Shown here one piece after another: positions 10,717 through 55,140 of a DNA stretch of 64,000 nucleotides; positions within the stretch are counted from its first letter, which is position 1; every line of letters begins with the position of its first letter. Made by a program: the position numbers and the translations under genes. The DNA lies in contig NC_054702.1 in the NCBI RefSeq assembly GCF_016097555.1, positions 70,002,695 to 70,066,694 of the forward strand, given 5' to 3'. The stretch comes from Gigantopelta aegis. Its lineage: Eukaryota; Mollusca; Gastropoda; Neomphalida; Peltospiridae. The notes under the pieces were generated by a model. That model was not told the origin of the DNA. It searched no databases and saw only the letters and a program-made list of their open reading frames with translations.

Positions 10717-10780
10717 CGAATCGACGTAACACACATTATCATTTCGCCATCAACTGCAGAGAAAACAGGACGTTAAAATA

Positions 10781-12013
10781 ATGGTATCAAATTTGTTGAT
10801 AATCATGTTTACGGGTATCGTTCTGATACCGTCAAACATGTGTAACGTGACCAGTTACAGATCAAACCACAACCGTTTGAAAGAGTACCTGAAGAACAAG
10901 CCGCTCATAATGGATCCTCCGATTTACGAAGTTGGAACTCGTTTATCTATTAGCCTTTTATTTGGTCTTGTGGCTATTCTGGATATTGATGAAGTAAAGC
11001 AGGTTTACACATTCATAGCATATTTTGAAGCTTCGTGGAAAGATCCTGAAGTGTCCTGGAATGCGACAGAGTTCGGTAACATCTCGGAGATACAGCTGGA
11101 TCGCAATTCAGTATGGACACCAACTCTTTTTATTGGTAATGGCGTAGATCGCCTTCGAGTTTTTGACGGATTGTTTGATTATCGTGTAGAGTCACCGGGC
11201 TACATTATAGTATCCACCACCGACATCTTCAAAGTAACATGTTCCATAAACGCGTACAGATACCCATTTGACAGCCAAACATGCGGACTACGAATTGTAA
11301 TCCCATTTCAGGAACCCTGGGATTTTCATGCAATGTCTTTAGATCTACCTCTACAGGAACTATTTGCAACCGACAATGAATGGTACCTTCATGGCAAGTC
11401 TGGAGTCGAGGCCAGAGTTTGGAACTCGAGTGGAAACGCCAGGGTGACAGGACCGTACACCTTCCAGGTTGCCGATTTCATGATGACTCTGAAACGAAAG
11501 TATGTTTTCTACATCGTGACCACCATATTTCCACTGTTCCTGCTGTCGATCCTGGCGAGTTTTGTCTTCCTGTTGCCGGCGTCTTCTGGAGACAAGATGT
11601 CTTACCTCATTTCCATATTCGTGTCCCACACCGTGTTTCTGAACTACGTGAACGAGTCGATGCCCAGGACATCCAACTCCTTGTCCTTGTTCGAGCTCTA
11701 TCTTTCGTTCGTCCTGTCCCACTGCTGTCTGGCTATTCTCGCCACGTTACTGGTTCTACGCGCATACACCAACTGGCAACATCATGACCAATCTGGAAAT
11801 CGTGTATCCTCTCTGTCTGAACTCACCAACATTCTAAAACCAGAACTCTTTAAGGTTCACAACAGTTCCCTAATGAAACCTTCGGTCAAGAAGGGGAATA
11901 CTAGCAAAGGACCGAGAAGGACACGTTGTTATATGACTCTTGGTGCCATATTTTTTGTGCTTTTCCTAACGTCTGCAGTCGTGTTTCCAGTAATACTTGT
12001 GGTGTATCTGTAA
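10781..12013 (+). CDS. Cys-loop ligand-gated ion channel, nicotinic-receptor-like (gene 1, intact)
   Basis: A 410-residue protein in a single exon. Residues 1-21 are a signal peptide, 22-238 the extracellular ligand-binding domain and 240-266 M1. M2 is 271-292, M3 302-327, M4 384-410, and the M3-M4 loop is short (about 56 residues). The Cys-loop is complete: C154 to C168, 13 residues apart, with YPFDSQTC. WKDPEVSWN (86-94) matches the loop D region of nicotinic receptors and W180 lies in the loop B region. The loop C region (about 214-228) lacks the paired cysteines of alpha subunits, so classical acetylcholine binding is doubtful. M2 begins SGDKMS; aspartate at -1' is compatible with cation selectivity. 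The 9' gate residue is valine rather than the usual leucine. The start was chosen because all three copies share it with an identical context. Family membership is firm; ligand and cell type are unknown. Chemosensory use is a hypothesis. Confidence 0.93.
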   Translation: MVSNLLIIMFTGIVLIPSNMCNVTSYRSNHNRLKEYLKNKPLIMDPPIYEVGTRLSISLLFGLVAILDIDEVKQVYTFIAYFEASWKDPEVSWNATEFGNISEIQLDRNSVWTPTLFIGNGVDRLRVFDGLFDYRVESPGYIIVSTTDIFKVTCSINAYRYPFDSQTCGLRIVIPFQEPWDFHAMSLDLPLQELFATDNEWYLHGKSGVEARVWNSSGNARVTGPYTFQVADFMMTLKRKYVFYIVTTIFPLFLLSILASFVFLLPASSGDKMSYLISIFVSHTVFLNYVNESMPRTSNSLSLFELYLSFVLSHCCLAILATLLVLRAYTNWQHHDQSGNRVSSLSELTNILKPELFKVHNSSLMKPSVKKGNTSKGPRRTRCYMTLGAIFFVLFLTSAVVFPVILVVYL

Positions 12014-16700: not shown

Positions 16701-17047
16701 CATGACAGCGTGCGTGAACCCTGTTCAGACAGAAGCACTAAAGTAAATGAAATAAAATAAAACGAAATAGCGTTAAATAATAACAGTGGTTTACGTTAAT
16801 GGTGTTAAGTTAATAGAAAATGTTAATCGTTCAGCAGAACGGTGTAACACGCACTACCACCAAATATTAATACATCATGTTTATCGTACCCGCGGTAAAA
16901 GACTTTCACTTAACACAAAACGTCAATATACAGATATATTTCCGCATCATACTTTTTAATAGTGCAATCTAAAATCAATAAAACGTGTCAATGAAACATC
17001 CATTATCATTTCGCCATCAACTGCAGAGGAAACAGGACGTCAAAATA

Positions 17048-18281
17048 ATGGTATCAAATTTGTTGATAATCATGTACACGGGTATTGTTCTGATACCGTC
17101 AGGCATGTGTGATGTGAGCAGTTACAGATCCAACCACAACCGTTTGAAAGAGTATCTGAAGAACAAGCCGCTAATAATGGACCCTCCGTATTACGAACCT
17201 GGTTCTCCTTTAGATATTTTGTTTCAATTTGGTCTGGTAGCTATTCTGGACATTGATGAAGTAAAACAAGTTTACACATTCATAGCATATTTTGAAGCTT
17301 CGTGGAAAGATCCTGAATTGTCCTGGAATGCGTCAGAGTTCGGTAACATCTCGGCGATACAGATGGATCGCAATTCAGTATGGACACCAAATCTTTTTAT
17401 TGGTAATGGCGTAGATCGCCTTCGAGTTTTTAACGGATTGTTTGATATTCGTGTAGAGTCACAAGGCTACATTACGGCATCCACCACCAACATCTTCAAA
17501 GTAACCTGTTCCATAAACGTGTACAGATACCCATTTGACAGCCAGACATGCGGACTACGAATTGCCACCACAGAAGAGGAACCTTGGAATTTCTATGCTA
17601 TATCTTTAGATCTGCCTCTGCAGGAACTATTTGCAACCGACAATGAATGGTACCTTCATGACAAGTCTGGAGTCGAGGCCAGAGTTTGGAGATCGAGCAC
17701 AAACTCCACATTGGCAGGGTTACATACGTTCCAGATAGCCGACTTCATGATGACTCTGAAACGAAAGTATGTTTTCTACATCGTGACCACCATATTTCCA
17801 CTGTTCCTGCTGTCGATCCTGGCAAATATTGTCTTCCTGCTGCCGGCGTCTTCTGGAGACAAGATGTCTTACCTCATTTGCATATTGGTGCTCCCACACC
17901 GTGTTTCTGAACTACGTGAACGAGTCGATGCCCAGGACATCCGACTCCTTGTCCTTGTTCGAGCTCTATCTTTCGTTCGTCCTGTCCCACTGCTGTCTGG
18001 CTATTCTCGCCACGTTACTGGTTCTACGCGCATACACCAACTGGCAACATCATGATCAATCTGAAAATCGTGTATCCTCTCTGTCTGAACTCACCGACAT
18101 CCTAAAACCAGAAGTCTTTAAGATTCTCAACAGTTCCATAATCAACCCTTCGGTCAACAAGGGGAATACTAGCAAAGAACCAACAAGGACACGTTGTTAT
18201 ATGTCTCTGGATGCCATATTTGTTGTGCTTTTCCTGTCATCAGCACTCGTGTTTCCACTAATACTTGTGGTTTATCCATAG
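17048..18281 (+). pseudogene. Cys-loop ligand-gated ion channel (gene 2), frameshifted in M2
   Basis: It is homologous over its full length to genes 1 and 3 and uses the same start at 17048. An upstream in-frame ATG at 16985 lies in the conserved leader and is not preferred. Signal peptide, Cys-loop (CSINVYRYPFDSQTC), M1 and the start of M2 are intact. Within 17887-17894, GGTGCTCCC replaces the CGTGTCCC of gene 3, a net gain of one base. The reading frame then leaves the family sequence and stops at 18055, losing M3 and M4; the family frame continues undamaged to 18281. The TATA box is also lost (CAATAAAA at 16975-16983). The two independent changes favour a young pseudogene, though a single-base assembly error cannot be excluded. 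Confidence 0.85.
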
Positions 18282-22486: not shown

Positions 22487-22551
22487 GCGTGTTGATAGAA
22501 CACACTTTATTATTTCGCCATTAACTGCAGAGGAAACAGGACGTTAAAATA

Positions 22552-23784
22552 ATGGTATCAAATTTGTTGATAATCGTTTTTACGGGTATCGTTCTGATAC
22601 CGTCAAACATGTGTGACGTGACCAGTTACAGATCAAACCACAACCGTTTGAAAGAGTATCTGAAGAACAAGCCGCTAATAATGGACCCTCCGTATTACGA
22701 ACCTGATTCTCATTTAGATATTTTGTTTGTATTTGGTCTTGTGGCTATTCTGGATATTGATGAAGTAAAGCAGGTTTACACATTCATAGCATATTTTGAA
22801 GCTTCGTGGAAAGATCCTGAATTGTCCTGGAATGCCTTAGAGTTCGGTAACATCTCAGCGATACAGTTGGATCGCAATTCAGTATGGACACCAAATCTTT
22901 TTATTGGTAATGGCGTAGATCGCCTTCGAGTTTTTGACGGATTGTTTGATATTCATGTAATATCACAAGGCTACATTAAGGTATCCACCACCGACATCTT
23001 CAAAGTAACGTGTTCCATAAACGTGTACAAATACCCATTTGACAGCCAGACATGCGGACTGCGAATTACCACCACAGAAGAGGAACCTTGGAATTTCTAT
23101 GCTATGTCTTTAGATCTGCCTCTACAGGAACTATTTGCAACCGACAATGAATGGTACCTTCATGGCAAGTCTGGAGTCGAGGCCAGAGTTTGGAGATCGA
23201 GCACAAACTCCACATTGGCAGGGTTACACACTTTCCAGATAGCCGACTTCATGATGACTCTGAAACGAAAGTATGTTTTCTACATCGTGACTAGCATATT
23301 TCCACTGTTCCTGCTGTCGATCCTGGCGAGTTTTGTCTTTCTGCTGCCGGCGTCTTCTGGAGACAAGATGTCTTACCTCATTTGCATATTCGTGTCCCAC
23401 ACCGTGTTTCTGAACTACGTGAACGAGTCGATGCCCAGGACATCCGACTCCTTGTCCTTGTTCGAGCTCTATCTGTCGTTCGTCCTGTCCCACTGCTGTC
23501 TGGCTATTCTCGCCACGTTACTGGTTCTACGCGCATACACCAACTGGCAACATCATGACCAATCTGGAAATCGTGTATCCTCTCTGTCTGAACTCACCGA
23601 CATTCTAAAACCAGAAGTCTTTAAGGTTCACAACAGTTCCCTAATGAAACCTTCGGTCAAAAAGGGGAATACTAGCAAAGGACCGATAAGGACTAGTTGT
23701 TATATGACTCTTGATGCTATATGTTTTGTGCTTTTCCTGTCATCAGCACTCGTGTTTCCAGTAATACTTGTGGCTTACTTGTAG
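22552..23784 (+). CDS. Cys-loop ligand-gated ion channel, nicotinic-receptor-like (gene 3, intact)
   Basis: A 410-residue single-exon paralogue of gene 1 with the same layout: signal peptide, Cys-loop (CSINVYKYPFDSQTC, C154-C168), M1-M4 and a short M3-M4 loop ending at M4. It shares SGDKMS at the start of M2, valine at 9', and the absence of paired cysteines in loop C. From residue 241 to 349 (M1 through the start of the intracellular loop) it differs from gene 1 at only three positions. In contrast, residues 48-60, 134-143, 173-184 and 215-228 are strongly changed. The last two map to the loop B/F and loop C regions of the binding site. The pattern suggests a conserved pore with altered binding surfaces, or recent conversion of the pore half. 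The ligand is unknown. Confidence 0.93.
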   Translation: MVSNLLIIVFTGIVLIPSNMCDVTSYRSNHNRLKEYLKNKPLIMDPPYYEPDSHLDILFVFGLVAILDIDEVKQVYTFIAYFEASWKDPELSWNALEFGNISAIQLDRNSVWTPNLFIGNGVDRLRVFDGLFDIHVISQGYIKVSTTDIFKVTCSINVYKYPFDSQTCGLRITTTEEEPWNFYAMSLDLPLQELFATDNEWYLHGKSGVEARVWRSSTNSTLAGLHTFQIADFMMTLKRKYVFYIVTSIFPLFLLSILASFVFLLPASSGDKMSYLICIFVSHTVFLNYVNESMPRTSDSLSLFELYLSFVLSHCCLAILATLLVLRAYTNWQHHDQSGNRVSSLSELTDILKPEVFKVHNSSLMKPSVKKGNTSKGPIRTSCYMTLDAICFVLFLSSALVFPVILVAYL

Positions 23785-28590: not shown

Positions 28591-28776
28591 TTAGTCGTTA
28601 ATGTTTCTCATTTTGCCAAGGTTCATGCCGGCTTGACTGGCCCCCTTGTTACTGCCATACTGTAAACTGACGACGTTCTTAGCTTCTAGCAACTGTTGCT
28701 CCGTAAACTGCCTCTCGTTCTTTTCAGCCATCTTGGGACCTAGAACTGGACCAGTGTAGTCGGGCTTGGTCTGGCA
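28591..28776 (-). CDS. Transgelin-like gene, last coding exon
   Basis: The acceptor is CCATTCCACAG at 28777-28787. The exon opens in phase 0 with CQTKPDYTGPVLGPKMAEKN and ends at TAA (28591-28593) after NLGKMRNIND. It holds the calponin repeat core SLQYGSNKGASQAGM. 186 bases, 61 residues plus stop. Confidence 0.92.
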   Translation of the reverse strand, partial: CQTKPDYTGPVLGPKMAEKNERQFTEQQLLEAKNVVSLQYGSNKGASQAGMNLGKMRNIND

Positions 28777-29391: not shown

Positions 29392-32300
29392 CACTGTAAA
29401 TAGGTATTGTACAATAAAAACGATACTGCTGTGAAGTCAATCAGCTAATTGATTAACACAGTTGACCCACTGCTGGAGGTAGCCTAAGGTTGCTGGGAAG
29501 ACTGGGGCAGTACCACTAAAGCAGGCAGGTGTGTACAGGATATATTATATAACCCAATAAACGGTTTTGGCTATCAAGTGAGATGTCTGCCTTGTGGGAT
29601 GTCTGTCTTTGGGAAGGGAACCATTTTTTCCCCAGCCATTCTCTGTTAAACTGCGCTCAATTGGTTTTAGTATTTTTGAAGTTGTAAATTATTAAATTCG
29701 GGCGTGTCTATAACGAACGTAGTTTCGATTCCACTACAAAAATTAATGACATTGACAAGTTTTACTGTTTATTACTTCTAATAAAACACATTCACTTGAT
29801 CGACATTGGAACAACGTTACCAAAAATTGCATTGAAATCAAATTCAACAAGAACAAAATAATTTTTGAGAAATAAAAAAGAAAACGGAATAAACGGTGTG
29901 TGTGTGTGTGTGCGCGCATGCGCACGCGTGAATGTATGCGTGGTTATTGCGTGACACATATAACTACAATTAATGAAGAGACTGTTCTAAATTTGCTGCC
30001 ATCGTAACGTGTTACCGACTAACAGCATTTTAATGATCAACCTTTTAATTGAATTTCCCAATCTAATTAAAATTAGCTCCATAATTACATGTGGATCTAA
30101 CAGCAGCCAGTTGGAGCTCATGTCCACCAATCAAAACCTTACTTGCAGAATCCTGCCAGTGATTTAAAAATAATTTGAAAACATTCCGAATTATTCTGAG
30201 GGTATACGACATGTTTCGTGTGAATTACGAATGCCTTAAAACATGTTTTATTTTATAAAATAAATAATTTGTAATGTAAAACTGAAAACTGATTTAGTTT
30301 GGTTTTTTTTTATAAATAAATAAATAATTTTTAATGTAAAATTGAAGACTGATAACCCACCCCGTACGTATTGGTATGGTTCGCTGTACTGCGGCCACTA
30401 AAATAGACTCGCCCGATATTTTTAGAATTTGTATGCTCCCAAATAACGTTATAAAAGGTGAAGTGTGATTGGTCAATATTTAAATTATTATTTACAGACG
30501 AAATGTTACCTGGACATTGGGGACTACGCAGTGTTGTTAGCAATCCGATTAAAATTAGTTTTACTGGTCTAAATAAGGCATTCGTAATTCACACGAAACA
30601 TGTCGTAAACCCTCAGGATAATTCGGAAAGAATGTTCAACAACACGTTTAGTGTACAGACACTGTCCGAAAGACGGAGCGGTACGTATCCCAGTGGTAAA
30701 GCGCCCGCTCGATGCGCGGTCGGTCTGGGATCGATCCCCGTCGGTGGGAGCATTGGGCTATTTCTCGTTCCAGCCATTGTACCACAACTGGTATATCAAA
30801 GGCCGTGGTATGTACTATCCTGTCTCTGGGATGGTGCATATAAAAGATCCCTTGCTGCTAATCGAAAAGAGTGGCGACAGCGGGTTTTCTCTCTTAATAT
30901 TTGTGTGGTCCTTAACCATAATATGTCTGATGCCATATAACCGTAAAGTAAAATGTGTTGAGTGCGTCGTTAAATAAAACATTTCCTTCCTTCCTTCCTG
31001 TCCGAAAGATTCTACAATGGCAGCAAACCACGGCCCAGATTTTCGAAGCTATCTTAGCGCTACGATATCGTAAAACCGTCGAAGGCTATGGAATGCACCG
31101 TTATGACGTCATAGATTACGACGGTTTTACGATATCGTAGCGCTAAGATAACTTCGAAAATCTCTGGACATTTAACCCTGTAATCGATTTCTGACGATGT
31201 CAGAATTTGCATTCAGGATGGACATGCCAGAACCTTCCCTGGACATGGGCTTAGCAAACATGTTTGGATCTGGAATAAGACATTTTAAAAACACTGACCA
31301 CTCGACCCAGGGCGTGGATGCAGAGAGTGACCTGGGGGATGTTCTTCCTCTCCCACAGATCCACCGTCTGGAAACACTCGGACGTGGGCACGCCGAACTT
31401 CCTGGCAGCTTCGGAGAATCTCTCGATATTCTGCATCAGTGCAAAGCCGCCTCCTTTCTTGTCGATCTTCTTAATACAACCCGGCGTTAGTTTGTTCATC
31501 AAGCTGAAAATCACAAAACAGGCTGTATGTTATTTGTTTATAACACAACCCGGCGTTAGTTTGATCATCAAGCTGAAAATCACAAAACAGGCTGTATGTT
31601 ATTTGTTTATAACACAACCCGGCGTTAGTTTGATCATCAAGCTGAAAATCACAAAACAGGCTGTATGTTATTTGTTTATAACACAACCCGGCGTTAGTTT
31701 GATCATCAAGCTGAAAATCACAAAACAGGCTGTATGTTATTTGTTTATAACACATCCCGGCGTTAGCTTGATCATCAAGCTGAAAATCACAAAACAGGCT
31801 GTATGTTATTTGTTTATAACACAACCCGGCGTTAGTTTGTTCATCAAGCTGAAAATCACAAAACAGGATGTATGTTATTTGTTTATAACACAACCCGGCG
31901 TTAGCTTGATCATCAAGCTGAAAATCACAAAACAGGCTGTATGTTATTTGTTTATAGCACAACCCGGCGTTAGTTTGTTCATCAAGCTGAAAATCACAAA
32001 ACAGGCTGTATGTTATTTGTTTATAACACAACCCGGCGTTAGTTTGTTCATCAAGCTGAAAATCACAAAACAGGCTGTATGTTATTTGTTTATAACACAA
32101 CCCGGCGTTAGTTTGTTCATCAAGCTGAAAATCACAAAACAGGCTGTATGTTATTTGTTTATAACACAACCCGGCGTTAGCTTGATCATCAAGCTGAAAA
32201 TCACAAAACAGGCTGTATGTTATTTGTTTATAACACAACCCGGCGTTAGCTTGATCATCAAGCTGAAAATCACAAAACAGGATGTATGTTATTTGTTTAT

Positions 32301-35300
32301 AACACAACCCGGCGTTAGCTTGATCATCAAGCTGAAAATCACAAAACAGGCTGTATGTTATTTGTTTATAACACAACCCGGCGTTAGCTTGATCATCAAG
32401 CTGAAAATCACAAAACAGGATGTATGTTATTTGTTTATAACACAACCCGGCGTTAGCTTGATCATCAAGCTGAAAATCACAAAACAGGATGTATGTTATT
32501 TGTTTATAACACAACCCGGCGTTAGCTTGATCATCAAGCTGAAAATCACAAAACAGGATGTATGTTATTTGTTTATAAAACAACCCGGCGTTAGTTTGAT
32601 CATCAAGCTGAAAATCACAAAACAGGATGTATGTTATTTGTTTATAAAACAGCCCGGCGTTAGTTTGTTCATCAAGCTGAAAATCACAAAACAGGCTGTA
32701 TGTTATTTGTTTATAACACAACCCGGCGTTAGCTTGATCATCAAGCTGAAAATCACAAAACAGGATGTATGTTATTTGTTTATAACACAACCCGGCGTTA
32801 GTTTGTTCATCAAGCTGAAAATCACAAAACAGGCTGTATGTTATTTGTTTATAACACAACCCGGCGTTAGCTTGATCATCAAGCTGAAAATCACAAAACA
32901 GGATGTATGTTATTTGTTTATAACACAACCCGGCGTTAGCTTGATCATCAAGCTGAAAATCACAAAACAGGATGTATGTTATTTGTTTATAACACAACCC
33001 GGCGTTAGTTTGATCATCAAGCTGAAAATCACAAAACAGGATGTATGTTATTTGTTTATAAAACAGCCCGGCGTTAGCTTGATCATCAAGCTGAAAATCA
33101 CAAAACAGGCTGTATGTTATTTGTTTATAACACAACCCGGCGTTAGTTTGTTCATCAAGCTGAAAATCACAAAACAGGATGTATGTTATTTGTTTATAAC
33201 ACAACCCGGCGTTAGTTTGTTCATCAAGCTGAAAATCACAAAACAGGCTGTTTGTTATTTGTTTATAAATCAGCCCGGCGTTAGTTTGTTCATCAAGCTG
33301 AAAATCACAAAACAGGCTGTATGTTATTTGTTTATAACACAACCCGGCGTTAGTTTGTTCATCAAGCTGAAAATCACAAAACAGGCTGTATGTTATTTGT
33401 TTATAACACAACCCGGCGTTAGTTTGTTCATCAAGCTGAAAATCACAAAACAGGCTGTATGTTATTTGTTTATAAAACAGCCCGGCGTTAGTTTGTTCAT
33501 CAAGCTGAAAATCACAAAACAGGCTGTATGTTATTTGTTTATAACACAACCCGGCGTTAGTTTGTTCATCAAGCTGAAAATCACAAAACAGGCTGTATGT
33601 TATTTGTTTATAACACAACCCGGCGTTAGTTTGTTCATCAAGCTGAAAATCACAAAACAGGCTGTATGTTATTTGTTTATAAAACAGCCCGGCGTTAGTT
33701 TGTTCATCAAGCTGAAAATCACAAAACAGGCTGTATGTTATTTGTTTATAAAACAACCCGGCGTTAGTTTGTTCATCAAGCTGAAAATCACAAAACAGGC
33801 TGTATGTTATTTGTTTATAAAACAACCCGGCGTTAGTTTGTTCATCAAGCTGAAAATCACAAAACAGGCTGTATGTTATTTGTTTATAAAACAGCCCGGC
33901 GTTAGTTTGTTCATCAAGCTGAAAATCACAAAACAGGCTGTATGTTATTTGTTTATAAAACAGCCCGGCGTTAGTTTGTTCATCAAGCTGAAAATCACAA
34001 AACAGGCTGTATGTTATTTGTTTATAACACAGCCCGGCGTTAGTTTGTTCATCAAGCTGAAAATCACAAAACAGGATGTATGTTATTTGTTTATAAAACA
34101 GCCCGGCGTTAGTTTGTTCATCAAGCTGAAAATCACAAAACAGGCTGTATGTTATTTGTTTATAACACAACCCGGCGTTAGTTTGTTCATCAAGCTGAAA
34201 ATCACAAAACAGGCTGTATGTTATTTGTTTATAACACAGCCCGGCGTTAGTTTGTTCATCAAGCTGAAAATCACAAAACAGGCTGTATGTTATTTGTTTA
34301 TAACACAGCCCGGCGTTAGTTTGTTCATCAAGCTGAAAATCACAAAACAGGCTGTATGTTATTTGTTTATAACACAACCCGGCGTTAGTTTGTTCATCAA
34401 GCTGAAAATCACAAAACAGGCTGTATGTTATTTGTTTATAACACAACCCGGCGTTAGTTTGTTCATCAAGCTGAAAATCACAAAACAGGCTGTATGTTAT
34501 TTGTTTATAACACAACCCGGCGTTAGTTTGTTCATCAAGCTGAAAATCACAAAACAGGCTGTATGTTATTTGTTTATAACACAACCCGGCGTTAGTTTGT
34601 TCATCAAGCTGAAAATCACAAAACAGGCTGTATGTTATTTGTTTATAAAACAGCCCGGCGTTAGTTTGTTCATCAAGCTGAAAATCACAAAACAGGCTGT
34701 ATGTTATTTGTTTATAAAACAACCCGGCGTTAGTTTGTTCATCAAGCTGAAAATCACAAAACAGGCTGTATGTTATTTGTTTATAAAACAACCCGGCGTT
34801 AGTTTGTTCATCAAGCTGAAAATCACAAAACAGGCTGTATGTTATTTGTTTATAACACAACCCGGCGTTAGTTTGTTCATCAAGCTGAAAATCACAAAAC
34901 AGGCTGTATGTTATTTGTTTATAACACAACCCGGCGTTAGTTTGTTCATCAAGCTGAAAATCACAAAACAGGCTGTATGTTATTTGTTTATAACACAACC
35001 CGGCGTTAGTTTGTTCATCAAGCTGAAAATCACAAAACAGGCTGTATGTTATTTGTTTATAACACAACCCGGCGTTAGTTTGTTCATCAAGCTGAAAATC
35101 ACAAAACAGGCTGTATGTTATTTGTTTATAACACAACCCGGCGTTAGTTTGTTGATCAAGCTGAAAATCACAAAACAGGCTGTATGTTATTTGTTTATAA
35201 CACAACCCGGCGTTAGTTTGTTGATCAAGCTGAAAATCACAAAACAGGCTGTATGTTATTTGTTTATAAAACAGCCCGGCGTTAGTTTGTTCATCAAGCT

Positions 35301-38300
35301 GAAAATCACAAAACAGGATGTATGTTATTTGTTTATAACACAACCCGGCGTTAGTTTGTTCATCAAGCTGAAAATCACAAAACAGGATGTATGTTATTTG
35401 TTTATAACACAACCCGGCGTTAGTTTGATCATCAAGCTGAAAATCACAAAACAGGCTGTATGTTATTTGTTTATAACACAGCCCGGCGTTAGTTTGTTCA
35501 TCAAGCTGAAAATCACAAAACAGGCTGTATGTTATTTGTTTATAACACAACCCGGCGTTAGTTTGTTCATCAAGCTGAAAATCACAAAACAGGCTGTATG
35601 TTATTTGTTTATAACACAACCCGGCGTTAGTTTGTTCATCAAGCTGAAAATCACAAAACAAGCTGAATGTTATCACAAACACAGGCGTGTTTGTTGTTAA
35701 AATTTGTTTTGTTTATAACACAACCCGGCGTTAGTTTGTTGATCAAGCTGAAAATCACAAAACAGGCTGTTTGTTATTTGTTTATAAAACAGCCCGGCGT
35801 TATTTTGTTCATCAAGCTGAAAATCACAAAACAGGATGTATGTTATTTGTTTATAACACAACCCGGCGTTAGTTTGTTCATCAAGCTGAAAATCACAAAA
35901 CAGGATGTATGTTATTTGTTTATAACACAACCCGGCGTTAGTTTTTTCATCAAGCTGAAAATCACAAAACAGGATGTATGTTATTTGTTTATAAAACAGC
36001 CCGGCGTTAGTTTGTTCATCAAGCTGAAAATCACAAAACAGGATGTATGTTATTTGTTTATAAAACAACCCGGCGTTAGTTTGTTCATCAAGCTGAAAAT
36101 CACAAAACAGGATGTATGTTATTCGTTTATAAAACAGCCCGGCGTTAGTTTGTTCATCAAGCTGAAAATCACAAAACAGGCTGTATGTTATTTGTTTATA
36201 ACACAACCCGGCGTTAGCTTGATCATCAAGCTGAAAATCACAAAACAGGATGTATGTTATTTGTTTATAACACAACCCGGCGTTAGTTTGTTCATCAAGC
36301 TGAAAATCACAAAACAGGATGTATGTTATTTGTTTATAAAACAGCCCGGCGTTAGTTTGTTCATCAAGCTGAAAATCACAAAACAGGATGTATGTTATTT
36401 GTTTATAAAACAACCCGGCGTTAGTTTGTTCATCAAGCTGAAAATCACAAAACAGGATGTATGTTATTTGTTTATAAAACAGCCCGGCGTTAGTTTGTTC
36501 ATCAAGCTGAAAATCACAAAACAGGCTGTATGTTATTTGTTTATAACACAACCCGGCGTTAGCTTGATCATCAAGCTGAAAATCACAAAACAGGATGTAT
36601 GTTATTTGTTTATAAAACAGCCCGGCGTTAGTTTGTTCATCAAGCTGAAAATCACAAAACAGGCTGTATGTTATTTGTTTATAACACAACCCGGCGTTAG
36701 TTTGATCATCAAGCTGAAAATCACAAAACAGGCTGTATGTTATTTGTTTATAACACAACCCGGCGTTAGTTTGATCATCAAGCTGAAAATCACAAAACAG
36801 GCTGTATGTTATTTGTTTATAACACAACCCGGCGTTAGTTTGTTCATCAAGCTGAAAATCACAAAACAGGCTGTATGTTATTTGTTTATAACACAACCCG
36901 GCGTTAGTTTGTTCATCAAGCTGAAAATCACAAAACAGGCTGTATGTTATTTGTTTAAAACACAGCCCGGCGTTAGTTTGTTCATCAAGCTGAAAATCAC
37001 AAAACAGGCTGTATGTTATTTGTTTATAAAACAGCCCGGCGTTAGTTTGATCATGAAGCTGAAAATCACAAAACAGGCTGTATGTTATTTGTTTATAACA
37101 CAACCCGGCGTTAGTTTGTTCATCAAGCTGAAAATCACAAAACAGGCTGTATGTTATTTGTTTATAACACAACCCGGCGTTAGTTTGTTGATCAAGCTGA
37201 AAATCACAAAACAGGCTGTATGTTATTTGTTTATAACACAACCCGGCGTTAGTTTGTTGATCAAGCTGAAAATCACAAAACAGGCTGTATGTTATTTGTT
37301 TATAACACAACCCGGCGTTAGTTTGATCATCAAGCTGAAAATCACAAAACAGGCTGTATGTTATTTGTTTATAAAACAGCCCGGCGTTAGTTTGATCATC
37401 AAGCTGAAAATCACAAAACAGGATGTATGTTATTTGTTTATAACACAACCCGGCGTTAGTTTGTTCATCAAGCTGAAAATCACAAAACAGGCTGTATGTT
37501 ATTTGTTTATAACACAACCCGGCGTTAGCTTGATCATCAAGCTGAAAATCACAAAACAGGATGTATGTTATTTGTTTATAAAACAGCCCGGCGTTAGTTT
37601 GATCATCAAGCTGAAAATCACAAAACAGGCTGTATGTTATTTGTTTATAATACAACCCGGCGTTAGTTTGTTCATCAAGCTGAAAATCACAAAACAGGCT
37701 GTATGTTATTTGTTTATAACACAACCCGGCGTTAGTTTGATCATCAAGCTGAAAATCACAAAACAGGCTGTATGTTATTTGTTTATAACACAACCCGGCG
37801 TTAGCTTGATCATCAAGCTGAAAATCACAAAAGAGGCTGTATGTTATTTGTTTATAACACAACCCGGCGTTAGTTTGTTCATCAAGCTGAAAATCACAAA
37901 ACAGGCTGTATGTTATTTGTTTATAACACAACCCGGCGTTAGTTTGTTCATCAAGCTGAAAATCACAAAACAGGATGTATGTTATTTGTTTATAGCACAG
38001 CCCGGCGTTAGTTTGTTCATCAAGCTGAAAATCACAAAACAGGATGTATGTTATTTGTTTATAACACAACCCGGCGTTAGTTTGTTCATCAAGCTGAAAA
38101 TCACAAAACAGGCTGTATGTTATTTGTTTATAGCACAACCCGGCGTTAGCTTGATCATCAAGCTTCATACACAGTAGTTCAAAATGCAGTAAATGGTGAT
38201 GGAACTGACAATATCCATGTTTAAGAATGAAAGCTTACGTGGTCACTGGGAAATGTTCGTATTCTAATAATATAGAACATTCGCATGTGTACTCTACAAA

Positions 38301-38783
38301 ACTTGACAATTTATATTCCCACCCTCTGTTTTGGCTCGACGAATATAACAGTTAACAACCTACGTACAACACTCTTGCTTATGTCATAATAGGTATATAT
38401 ATTTTCATTAAAAAAGTTAAAATATTAAATTAAATATTACAAACATTGCTAATTAATGTGTCATATTCACTACATTGTACATATTGTCAGGAAATTTAAG
38501 ATATTCACAACTTGTCTGCACAAAATAAGTCTGTTATTTAAAATATACAGTGTTACTGTAACAATATGACAGAGATATATGATCCATATGAACCTAGCAG
38601 TCACTGCATTTTACTAAAATTATTATATTATTATATTATTAATGGTGTGAAGATAGTGTGGACTTACTTGCATAAAATTATACCATCTTTTAACACATCT
38701 TCGTACGGTCTCTTCCTGTCGATCGGTTCTCCCAAAATAGCTTCGATCCAATCCAAGGCTTGAGTCTCCAACTCTGGGTCACG
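28591..38783 (-). CDS. Transgelin/calponin-like muscle protein, partial (exons 2-4 found)
   Basis: Three exons on the minus strand, by GT-AG or near-consensus junctions: 38668-38783, 31299-31503 and 28591-28776. Joined, they encode 168 residues: RDPELETQALDWIEAILGEP, then ...LMNKLTPGCIKKIDKKGGGF...FGVP...FQTVDLWERKNIPQVTLCIHALGRV, then ...VVSLQYGSNKGASQAGMNLG and a stop. This is a type-3 calponin-homology domain followed by one calponin-like repeat, the layout of transgelin, SM22 and insect Mp20 (usually about 185-200 residues). The first exon, expected to give about 20 residues, was not found in the window and may lie beyond 64 kb. Such proteins bind and bundle actin in muscle. The gene converges with the channel cluster. 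Its second intron is almost entirely a 69-bp tandem array built from its own 3' splice site. Confidence 0.92.
28784..30661 (-). other. Part of the last transgelin intron: unassigned
   Basis: Intronic, with a (TA)n tract at 29356-29391 and a GT/GC-alternating, potentially Z-forming tract at 29897-29930. Nothing coding was recognised. ATTCACACGAAACATGTCGT at 30587-30606 recurs inverted near 30208-30227, with related sequence around both, suggesting a further inverted-repeat element across 30200-30610. Confidence 0.5.
30674..30997 (+). repeat. SINE-1, full length, tail A, 12-bp target-site duplication
   Basis: The head CGGAGCGGTACGTATCCCAG is at left; tail A and (CCTT)n at right. CTGTCCGAAAGA flanks it at 30662-30673 and 30998-31009. 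It lies antisense in the last transgelin intron. Confidence 0.9.
31035..31167. mobile_element. Palindromic miniature element, about 47-bp arms
   Basis: AGCGCTACGATATCGTAAAA in the left arm is perfectly mirrored in the right arm (TTTTACGATATCGTAGCGCT). The outer parts (AGATTTTCGAAG and CTTCGAAAATCT) also pair. About 35 bases separate the arms. It lies in the last transgelin intron, where the transcript could form a long hairpin. Confidence 0.75.
31299..31503 (-). CDS. Transgelin-like gene, CH-domain exon with the multiplied acceptor
   Basis: The acceptor is TGTGATTTTCAG ending at 31504. One base completes an Asn codon, then 68 codons run LMNKLTPGCIKK to CIHALGRV, followed by a GTCAGT donor at 31298. 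The exon's first 28 bases and its acceptor are the template of the 69-bp array that abuts it. 205 bases. Confidence 0.92.
31478..38164 (-). repeat. Minisatellite of ~97 copies of a 69-bp splice-acceptor unit in a transgelin intron
   Basis: AACCCGGCG or AGCCCGGCG recurs every 69 bases from 31478 to 35618 (61 starts) and from 35722 to 38137 (36 starts). One irregular 104-base step at 35618-35722 separates the blocks. Read on the gene's strand, each unit is about 40 intron bases, the acceptor TGATTTTCAG, then CTTGATGAACAAACTAACG and CCGGGTTGT, i.e. the first 28 bases of the exon at 31299-31503. The exon-proximal unit is the exon itself. Variant positions: agTTtgTTc / agTTtgATc / agCTtgATc, caggCtgta / caggAtgta, and the ends of TTTATAACACAA / TTTATAAAACAG. 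The far end stops at 38164, two bases short of an acceptor. Length variation is almost entirely absent. Confidence 0.97.
38668..38783 (-). CDS. Transgelin-like gene, first CH-domain exon found
   Basis: The acceptor TTTCTTGACAG ends at 38784 and the donor AA|GTAAGT lies at 38667. The exon encodes RDPELETQALDWIEAILGEP through KRPYEDVLKDGIILC plus two bases of the next codon (completed as Asn). 116 bases. Confidence 0.92.
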
Positions 38784-51463: not shown

Positions 51464-53063
51464 CTACTCAAAAGAATTTAAGGGTCAAAAATGTATAACC
51501 AAATAAGTTTCAGAGTGTATTAGATTGATGATGTAAACTACACCAAAAATTTAATTTATTGTTCCATATTTACAAAAAACCCACAAATAAACGTCACTGT
51601 ATACAAGAAAGTCACATGACATGCTGTCAAAGTTGAAGGTTGTCAAACATGGATTTTACACATTAGAACATTCGTTTAATAGTGTGTGAATCCACCCCTG
51701 GCGCGAATACACTCGACACATCGTTGCCTCATGCTGTTGATCAGACGTCTGAAGAACTCTTGGGGAATGGCCTGCCACTCTGCCATAAGAAGTTGACCCA
51801 GATCATGAAGGTTGGCCGGAGGGGCATGGTTATCCCTAACTCTCCTGCCTAATTCGTCCCAGGCGTTCTCTATTGGGGCCAAGTCAGGCGAATATGCTGG
51901 CCAATCCATCCTGGCGATACCTTGTTGTCTGAGAAAGTCCGTTACCACCCTGGCGCGGTGGGGTCTGGCATTGTCATCCTGCAGAACTGCCCCGCCGCCA
52001 ATTTGCTGAAGGCCTGGGAGAACCAACGGCCGGATAATCTCATTCAGATAGCGGATTCCATTCAGATTGCCATCCACCACATAGAGAGGGGTCCTGTGGT
52101 GGATAGAGATGCCGCCCCACACCATGACGCTGCCACCACCGAACCGGTGACGTTGTCTAACGTTAACGTCAGCGAAGCGCTCCCCAGGACGCCTGTAGAC
52201 ACGAACCCGACCGTCGTTGAACTGGAGACTAAACCTGGACTCATCAGTGAACATCACTCGACCCCACTGAACACGTTGCCACCGCAGATGAAGTGTGCAC
52301 CAGTGACATCTGGCCGTTCTGTGACGTGGTAGGAGTGGTGGTCGAACAGCCTGGCGACGGCAGCGTAGATTATTGGCTCTCAGACGATTGCGTATGGTTT
52401 GATCAGACACTCGAGTTCCAGTCGCAGTCCGCAGATTGTCACGTAATCGGCGTGCAGTGGTTGTGCGTTGACGTAGAGCCATATTGGTGATGTAGTGGTC
52501 CTCTCTATTTGTAGTGCTTCGGGGTCTTCCCGAACGTGGACGATTTCGAACAGAATTCGTTGCTTGGTACCGTTGCCACAGTCGGCCAACGACACTGACT
52601 GACACAAAGTCTCAGAGCAACATTTCTTTGCGTATTGCCATCCTGAAGCCAAGCAATAGCCCTTCCTCGATCTTCGATAGTCAGTTGACGTCGTACCATT
52701 GTCGAATTTGGAGTGTGCACCGTACACGAACACAAGCTCCAATTATACGGAAATTCAGCATTGGGAACATGGAATACACATGCAAAGCGTGAAAATGAAG
52801 CGCTTTGTGAAAAAGCAAGTTATGGGCACTTAGCAGACCTTTCGCTTTCGCCCTAATTTACATGCAAATGTAAGCATGTTTTCGCCATTAGAACTAGTCG
52901 ACAGTGTCAATGACAGTGGATTTTAATTCATTTATGGGTTGCTTAGTCCCACTTTCGTCAAAATGGAACAATACCATGCGTGACATTATGGTCTAGCTAA
53001 TATAATTGACATTCAGAAAATAATGTCGAAAATATCGTCTGACCCTTAAATTCTTTTGAGTAG
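51464..53063 (-). mobile_element. Tc1-like DNA transposon, 1.6 kb, perfect 24-bp inverted ends
   Basis: CTACTCAAAAGAATTTAAGG plus GTCA at 51464-51487 is exactly inverted at 53040-53063. The element sits inside a TA-rich microsatellite, as expected for a TA-targeting transposon. TA is present at the left edge; the right edge reads TTA, leaving one base of ambiguity. It has one transposase gene, on the minus strand. Identical ends and a nearly open transposase imply recent activity of the family. Confidence 0.93.
51676..52699 (-). pseudogene. Tc1-like DD34E transposase with one frameshift
   Basis: From MVRRQLTIEDRGRAIAWLQD at 52699 the frame covers the first helix-turn-helix to about 52610. 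It then shifts to the frame running VVGRLWQRYQATNSVRNRPR to GGFTHY and a stop at 51676. The span is 1024 bases, so the net shift is one base. Catalytic residues are in place: D in MFTDESRF, D in LQDDNARPH and E in SPDLAPIENAWDE, with 34 residues between the second D and E, the Tc1 spacing. The bipartite DNA-binding region with the GRPRS linker is recognisable. Without the N-terminal helices, the product of the long frame alone should not bind the ends. Confidence 0.9.
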
Positions 53064-53722: not shown

Positions 53723-54240
53723 AAGTGTTCCCATATGGTTTTTCTCTCAGTATATGTAAGTGCATGTGTGTGTTAAATTTCATATAAGTGTTCCCATATT
53801 GTTTTTCTCAGTATATATCAGTGCATGTGTGTGTTAAATTTCATATAAGTGTTTCCTTATTGATTTTCTCTCAGTATATATAAGTGCATGTGTGTGTTAA
53901 ATTTCATATAAGTGTTCCCTTATTGATTTTATCTCAGTATATATAAGTGCATGTGTGTGTTAAATTTCATATAAGTGTTCCCATATTGTTTTTATCTCAG
54001 TATATATCAGTGCATGTGTGTGTTAAATTTCATATAAGTGTTCCCATATTGTTTTTATCTCAGTATATATAAGTGCATGTGTGTGTTAAATTTCAAATAA
54101 GTGTTCCCATATTGTTTTTATCTCAGTATATATTAGTGCATGTGTGTGTTAGATTTCATATAAGTGTTCCCATATTGATTTTCTCTCAGTATATATAAGT
54201 GCATGTGTGTGTTAAATTTCATTTTAGCGTTCCCTTATTG

Positions 54241-54480: not shown

Positions 54481-54589
54481 TCTGTATATATATGTGCATG
54501 TGTGTGTTAAATTTTGTCTACAAATACCAAGTGTTCCCTTATTTATTTATTTCTCTCAGTATACATTGTGTGCATGCATGTGTCGTAGG

Positions 54590-55140
54590 GGGCGGGATCT
54601 AGCTCAGTCGGTAGGGCGCTCGCCTGAAGTGCATGTGTCGTAGGGGGCGGGATCTATCTCAGTCGGTAGGGCGCTCGCCTGAAGTGCTTGTGTCGTAGGG
54701 GGCGGGATCTATCTCAGTCGGTAGGGCGCTCGCCTGAAGTGCTTGTGTCGTAGGGGGCGGGATCTAGCTCAGTCGGTAGGGCGCTCGCCTGAAGTGCTTG
54801 TGTCGTAGGGGGCGGGATCTAGCTCAGTCGGTAGGGCGCTCGCCTGAAGTGCTTGTGTCGTAGGGGGCGGGATCTAGCTCAGTCGGTAGGGCGCTCGCCT
54901 GAAGTGCTTGTGTCGTAGGGCGCGGGATCTAGCTCAGTCGGTAGGGCGCTCGCCTGAAGTGCTTGTGTCGTAGGGGGCGGGATCTATCTCAGTCGGTAGG
55001 GCGCTCGCCTGAAGTGCTTGTGTCGTAGGGGGCGGGATCTATCTCAGTCGGTAGGGCGCTCGCCTGAAGTGCATGTGTCGTAGGGGGCGGGATCTATCTC
55101 AGTCGGTAGGGCGCTCGCCTGAAGTGCTTGTGTCGTAGGA
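54590..55140 (+). repeat. Ten tandem 55-bp copies of a tRNA-like SINE-3 head
   Basis: Each unit reads GGGCGGGATCTAGCTCAGTC, GGTAGGGCGCTCGCCTGAAG, TGCTTGTGTCGTAG, repeating at exactly 55 bases. TAGCTCAGTCGG fits the pol III box A consensus. AGCTCAG/ATCTCAG and TGCTTG/TGCATG are the main variants. No box B lies inside the units; only the last unit continues into a box-B-like GGATCGAATCA and the SINE body (55139-55312). Confidence 0.92.

Follow-up and report, generated by a model that had tools for sequence, protein, structure and literature searches.

In a 64,000-nucleotide stretch of the genome of the gastropod Gigantopelta aegis (contig NC_054702.1, positions 70,002,695 to 70,066,694, the whole of which is referred to here as the window), a transgelin/calponin-like gene on the minus strand carries, in one of its introns, 97 head-to-tail copies of its own 3' splice junction. 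We consider it likely that this array is a mirage minisatellite, a repeat that arose through ordinary growth across an exon-intron junction and that is tolerated because exon definition would pick the copy nearest the exon; the array itself is probably near-neutral. The parts of the gene on which the argument depends are as follows.

38668 to 38783, minus strand: upstream CH-domain exon, 116 nt, phase 2 at its end (Pfam and frame).
38666 to 38667, minus strand: GT of the intron donor, CAA/GTAAGT, 5.67 bits with approximate weights (sequence and score).
31504 to 38667, minus strand: intron of 7164 nt, occupied almost throughout by the array (copy listing).
31476 to 38164, minus strand: putative mirage minisatellite, 97 copies, each with 41 nt of intron end and 28 nt of exon start (Tandem Repeats Finder [TRF], copy listing and unit comparison).
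35644 to 35747, minus strand: copy 36, the sole 104-bp unit, with a 35-nt insert; the next copy starts at 35643 (copy listing).
31504 to 31505, minus strand: acceptor AG that preserves the reading frame (copy listing and translation).
31299 to 31503, minus strand: CH-domain exon, 205 nt, the first 28 nt of which are repeated upstream; donor GT from 31298 (Pfam and frames).
28591 to 28776, minus strand: final coding exon, containing the calponin repeat and the stop codon; the 5' edge is placed from the translation (Pfam and frames).

The identity of the gene is indicated by Pfam matches to a CH domain in the exon at 31503-31299 (E = 9.5e-11) and to a calponin repeat in the last exon (E = 4.7e-10), together with a match of the joined protein to calponin-2 (9.3e-19); the exon at 38783-38668, taken alone, gives a CH-domain match of E = 0.0035 and 18 bits, below the curated cut-off of 26. 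No convincing start exon was found within the 64-kb window, and a search of the CH exon against viral contigs returned no relative. Both introns flanking the repeated exon are large, at 7164 nt upstream and about 2.5 kb, with an inferred end, downstream.

Copies of the exon start stand at 38162, 38093 and so on to 31572 and 31503, spaced at 69 bp in 95 of the 96 intervals and at 104 bp once. A sequence-only reading of this DNA had described a 69-bp unit made up of the 3' end of the intron, the AG, and the first 28 bases of the exon, with about 97 such units filling the transgelin-like intron and the one nearest the exon being the exon itself; our copy listing bears out this description, with copy 97 (31503) as the real exon start and the remaining 96 copies as decoys. 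The splice signal AG precedes all 97 copies, within TTTTCAG directly before copies 2 to 97 and within TATGAAG before copy 1, the most distant from the exon. Identity to the real site extends to 95 of the 96 decoys over positions -15 to +1, to 65 over -20 to +3, and to 21 over all 69 nt; as 95 decoys are identical to the real acceptor over the first of these ranges, the choice among them can hardly rest on local sequence. TRF scores of 7830 and 4452 exclude a chance origin, and the array consists of tandem copies of minisatellite size that straddle an exon-intron boundary, one of them being authentic. A genome search, which the same reading had proposed as a check on whether the unit is confined to this gene, showed that it is private: all 44 of the best-scoring matches in the 1.149-Gb assembly (5216 contigs) lie inside the array. 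The intron flank has a single match in this assembly, in which one haplotype was present and a second allele was not found.

Copies 2 to 97 comprise 33 unit types in an irregular order, with the longest repeated run spanning 5 units, and neighboring copies differ at 1.86 positions, compared with 2.31 when the order is shuffled (a value this low arose in 0 of 2000 shuffles), so that neighbors are homogenized in the manner of minisatellite turnover. The number of types, the closeness of neighbors, and the shortness of repeated runs fit local duplication, unlike block copying by an assembler. They argue against an assembly error, in which the true copy number would be far smaller or copies would have been multiplied by the assembler, as do the location of the array inside a 120.6-Mb contig and the presence elsewhere in the genome of similarly built arrays of different sequence. 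We regard such an error as very improbable, even though a single haplotype and the precedent of a mis-assembled mirage in the amphioxus draft genome, reported in the available part of PMC3087553, count in its favor. The copy at the exon carries the commonest sequence type, shared by 22 of 96. A search of the rest of the window for a source of the 41 intronic bases gave an unconvincing best score of 31, the highest of 15 shuffles being 28; the distal intron flank, considered as an ancestral acceptor, has no similarity to the unit. The commonest variants of the exon part, at +7, +9, and +13 (CTTGATGATCAAG; TTGATCAA), make a near-palindrome perfect, which is what templated correction of quasi-palindromes would give, a speculative suggestion. 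Folding of the unit into an RNA hairpin (z = -1.44, -2.09, and -3.03 in three units taken singly and -3.15 for a 310-nt stretch) was not used as evidence; the stretch at the real acceptor gave a z of +0.89, no covariation was seen between the paired variable positions, +25 and -20 (Fisher P = 0.21), and the unit folded as DNA gave z values of -0.20 and 0.10.

The expectation that use of an upstream copy would truncate the protein was upheld for every decoy: joined to the upstream exon (38783-38668, phase 2), all 96 run into an in-frame stop, 94 of them ending in NK or NE before the stop, one stopping earlier, after TPG, and one extending to NIQLVL. None of the 425 GTs in the array is donor-like when scored with approximate weights; the best reaches -2.81 bits, compared with 5.67 and 1.49 for the real donors at 38667 and 31298 and with a 95% point of 1.10 among the 4072 GTs on the minus strand of the window. 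This result speaks against recursive splicing and against decoys acting as whole exons. Tandem alternative exons, as in Dscam, also place many acceptor copies in one intron, each copy being a whole exon with an acceptor, a donor, and a kept frame; the window array has no donor-like site and does not keep the frame. That the copies might serve as mini-exons or alternative exon starts is, in our judgment, extremely improbable: the local acceptors are complete, but the lack of donor-like sites, the invariable stops, and amino acid-changing variants in the exon parts of decoys, such as N to I, all tell against such a role. On either strand, long open frames run through the array (1413, 845, 1473, and 836 amino acids); they were rejected as evidence of a gene, because they are expected where the unit length is a multiple of 3.

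A further possibility, which we consider improbable, is that the array is regulatory, with decoys binding U2AF/U2 or slowing splicing and with copy number tuning output or intron retention. The AG is kept in all 96 decoys, the tract and the +1 base are unchanged in 95, and the promotion of intron retention by decoy exons has been described (PMC8706089, available part). Once the rearranged unit was masked, the copies showed variation at 15 sites, with at least 17 events, none of which falls at -15 to -1 (binomial P = 0.015). The longest invariant run gives a P of only 0.11 by a longest-run test, so that constraint on the decoy acceptors is not established, and decoy sites in other arrays of the same genome decay freely: most have AAG in a transgelin paralog (L019), have no AG in L029, and have lost the GT in 5 of 10 cases in L070.

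We therefore return to the mirage minisatellite, for which the following course of events is proposed. By chance, a tandem duplication would have straddled the 3' splice junction of the transgelin-like gene and then expanded, through slippage or unequal exchange, to 97 copies, with growth confined to the intron side. The copy nearest the exon would stay functional because it alone joins the body of the exon and the downstream donor, and the spliceosome, pairing sites across an exon that lies between large introns, would bypass the decoys, use of which would end in a stop codon. Where introns are large, exon definition favors the sites closest across the exon, according to the available part of PMC9225289. 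Several points weigh against this account. The absence of variant events at -15 to -1 is a possible hint that the decoys are under constraint. Likeness to the real copy is flat along the array (Spearman 0.01, P = 0.90); proximal copies are no closer to the real copy, and growth from the exon side is thus not visible. For 3' sites in large introns, section 9 of PMC9225289, in its available part, describes no more than a weakening of the preference for the upstream site; exon definition may therefore leak, and some use of nearby decoys would be unsurprising. Finally, the choice of the last copy by exon definition is deduced from DNA sequence.

Arrays of the same design occur elsewhere in the genome. 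The survey comprised 68 exon regions fetched by homology (L013, L015-L036, L038-L079, and L081-L083; 230,940 bp), containing 55 arrays with a period of at least 20 and spanning 16,699 bp; the count omits L001-L012 and L037 (the window gene), L014 (the same gene as L019), and L080 (which continues L046). The regions partly overlap or adjoin, and 28 of the 68 have matches of more than 450 bp and may belong to intron-poor genes. Among the arrays whose sequence was read individually, 10 were verified as junction arrays, in 9 of the 68 regions.

L019:588-1540 (G000:C4:136921-137873): acceptor array, mostly 34-bp spacing, ending in the real CAG/GGTAGCC.
L023: donor array, 94 bp by 2.8 copies, with only 3 nt of exon.
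L029: acceptor array, 24 bp by 3.2 copies, with 7 nt of exon; decoys without AG.
L046:498-1554: acceptor array, 106 bp by 10 copies, with about 58 nt of exon.
L046:1668 to the end of L080: donor array beyond the same exon, 51-bp unit, 96.5 copies by TRF.
L047: donor array, 98 bp by 3.1 copies.
L068: donor array, 16 copies, several of them lacking the GT in its place.
L070: donor array, 273 bp by 5 copies, GT absent in 5 of 10 matched sites.
L081: donor array, 80 bp by 8 copies, with 23 nt of exon.
L082: acceptor array, 40 bp by 3.8 copies, AG copied and exon bases not.

All 10 verified arrays, whether of acceptors or of donors, lie on the intron side, and the copy that continues into the body of the exon is always the one at the gene's junction, as exon definition predicts. 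A protein search of the genome gave 10 matches, 3 of which are the window gene. The paralog in L019, 70 Mb off on the same contig, carries its own exon start 27 times (GGTAGCCAATGTGATAGCC and variants), with AG before 26 of the copies and AAG rather than CAG in most decoys; its unit is unlike that of the window, and its exon looks as though it starts at the same phase-2 position (VANVIAPG compared with LMNKLTPG). In the next intron of this paralog, 35-bp arrays (L019:1821-2019 and L019:2405-2563) contain the acceptor-like CCCTTGTGTAG, and the start of the next exon is not copied. The plastin-like exon in L046 (plastin-3, 1.6e-16) is a two-sided mirage (L046/L080, G000:C9:81307977-81313900), the donor array of which has at least 97 counted copies, 95 with GT, a lower bound because the array reaches the end of the sequence stretch. 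Other hosts are an ERK5-like kinase (L068, MAPK7, 7e-67), a protein kinase (L070, 1.1e-36), and a myosin head (L081, 1.9e-30); in L047, L023, and L082, the exon edges lie beyond the domain match, and the exons were recognized by open frames. In the kinase array (L070:1848-3210), copies with and without GT partly alternate, possibly as a higher-order unit. Five other arrays were left out of the tally of junction arrays: L026 and L043 are not exon linked, L083 has no exon shown at its edge, L081:1-149 ends within a polypyrimidine tract, and the repeats of L015 lie inside coding sequence. A number of short matches to the myosin head fall within open frames of 750 to 1094 amino acids, which may represent intron-poor genes or in-frame arrays.

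Whether arrays favor junctions was judged by several counts. In the first test, a loose one, arrays lay across an exon edge at 5 of 66 loci, compared with 6.4 expected by circular shifts, and so showed no excess. A stricter test, with exonic overlap limited to about one unit, counted 6 arrays where 2.03 were expected (P = 0.0135), 7 against 2.56 by circular shifts when L081-L083 were included (P = 0.014), and 6 against 2.35 without L019 (P = 0.027); in a near-edge test, 10 arrays were counted where 4.07 were expected (P = 0.008), 3 of the 10 (L015, L081:1-149, and L083) not being verified junction copies. The criteria of the stricter and near-edge tests were written after hits had been seen. 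Arrays are dense in this genome and reach junctions about as often as chance would have it or somewhat more. These counts bear on the idea that splice junctions are preferred birthplaces of minisatellites, with transcription-linked breaks or slippage in the polypyrimidine tract as possible routes, so that mirages would exceed chance overlap; this idea, which we entertain only tentatively, would add to the explanation given above rather than exclude it. The two- to threefold excess at exon edges (7 and 10 arrays in the two tests) and the unrelated arrays at apparently the same intron of two transgelin-like genes argue for it, whereas the looser test, the post hoc criteria, the three unverified near-edge arrays, the weaker P value without L019, and the small number of regions, some overlapping, argue against it. 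The corresponding picture, of preferential birth at junctions leaving a sizeable share of exons with private arrays that are survivable through exon definition, is possible but doubtful.

The sequence-only reading knew of no described case of such an array; the kind proves to be known, although none with so many copies was found in the literature as available, and the comparisons that follow likewise refer to the available parts of the cited papers. "Mirages," minisatellite-like duplications of intron-exon boundaries, were described in amphioxus globin genes (PMC3087553), which cites an Adh3 mirage with units of 10 to 72 bp, and troponin C is named and PGBD5 described in PMC3902484. Like the window array, they are tandem boundary copies, with the authentic one at the exon and neighbors homogenized; they occur at 3' or 5' junctions, and many copies have AG or GT. 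The globin units are 150 to 160 bp in BflGb6, in 6 and 3 copies, and 157 bp in BflGb9, compared with 97 copies of 69 bp here, and the BflGb6 boundary units escape homogenization, whereas the window copy at the exon is of the commonest type. Reverse transcription-PCR suggested undisturbed splicing in amphioxus, and a route of intron gain was proposed (PMC3087553); the window array, in contrast, is known from its DNA alone. Internal tandem repeats in duplicated human genes are likewise minisatellite expansions at exon-intron boundaries (PMC2812944); the gene-changing ones average 30-bp units, 4 copies, and 160 bp and can yield novel introns or alternative transcripts. Introners are repeated sequences with splice signals dispersed over many genes (PMC9860276), whereas the best-scoring matches of the window unit were confined to one locus. 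Earthworm metallothionein genes have intron minisatellites, which the source, as available, does not describe as junction spanning. Among the literature matches listed, none was recognizable as a junction array that reaches this size or comes from a mollusc. As far as these searches show, the size, the occurrence on both sides of one exon, and the genomic abundance are new.

Other features of the window are unconnected with the array. Three similar long open frames on the plus strand, at 10730-12013, 16982-18055, and 22525-23784, belong to the neurotransmitter-gated ion-channel family (Pfam), the middle one continuing in another frame at 17787-18281. A 311-amino-acid open frame on the minus strand (51676-52611) has Tc-type transposase domains (DDE_3, 1.4e-15; HTH_Tnp_Tc3_2, 5.7e-14). 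At 53723-54240, a 63-bp unit repeated 8.3 times contains the acceptor-like TTGTTTTTATCTCAG on the plus strand, and at 54575-55139, a 55-bp unit repeated 10.3 times, in which no tRNA was called, is perhaps the head of a short interspersed nuclear element; it contains TAGCTCAGTCGGTAG, which we take to be a tRNA A-box-like string. Rfam and tRNA scans of the 64-kb window returned nothing.

In genes of this kind, about 100 locally near-identical acceptors or donors compete, and the reading frame tells which of them must win, so that ordinary cDNA would suffice to test a long-standing question, that of pairing across the exon as opposed to first-come or scanning selection. If our sample is a guide to their frequency, such arrays would be a trap for gene prediction and short-read assembly, and they would provide a steady source of intron growth and of spare splice sites, the route of intron gain proposed from the amphioxus globins. 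Should junctions prove to be preferred sites of minisatellite birth, arrays of up to about 100 copies would make introns longer and offer spare sites at which introns could slide or be gained.

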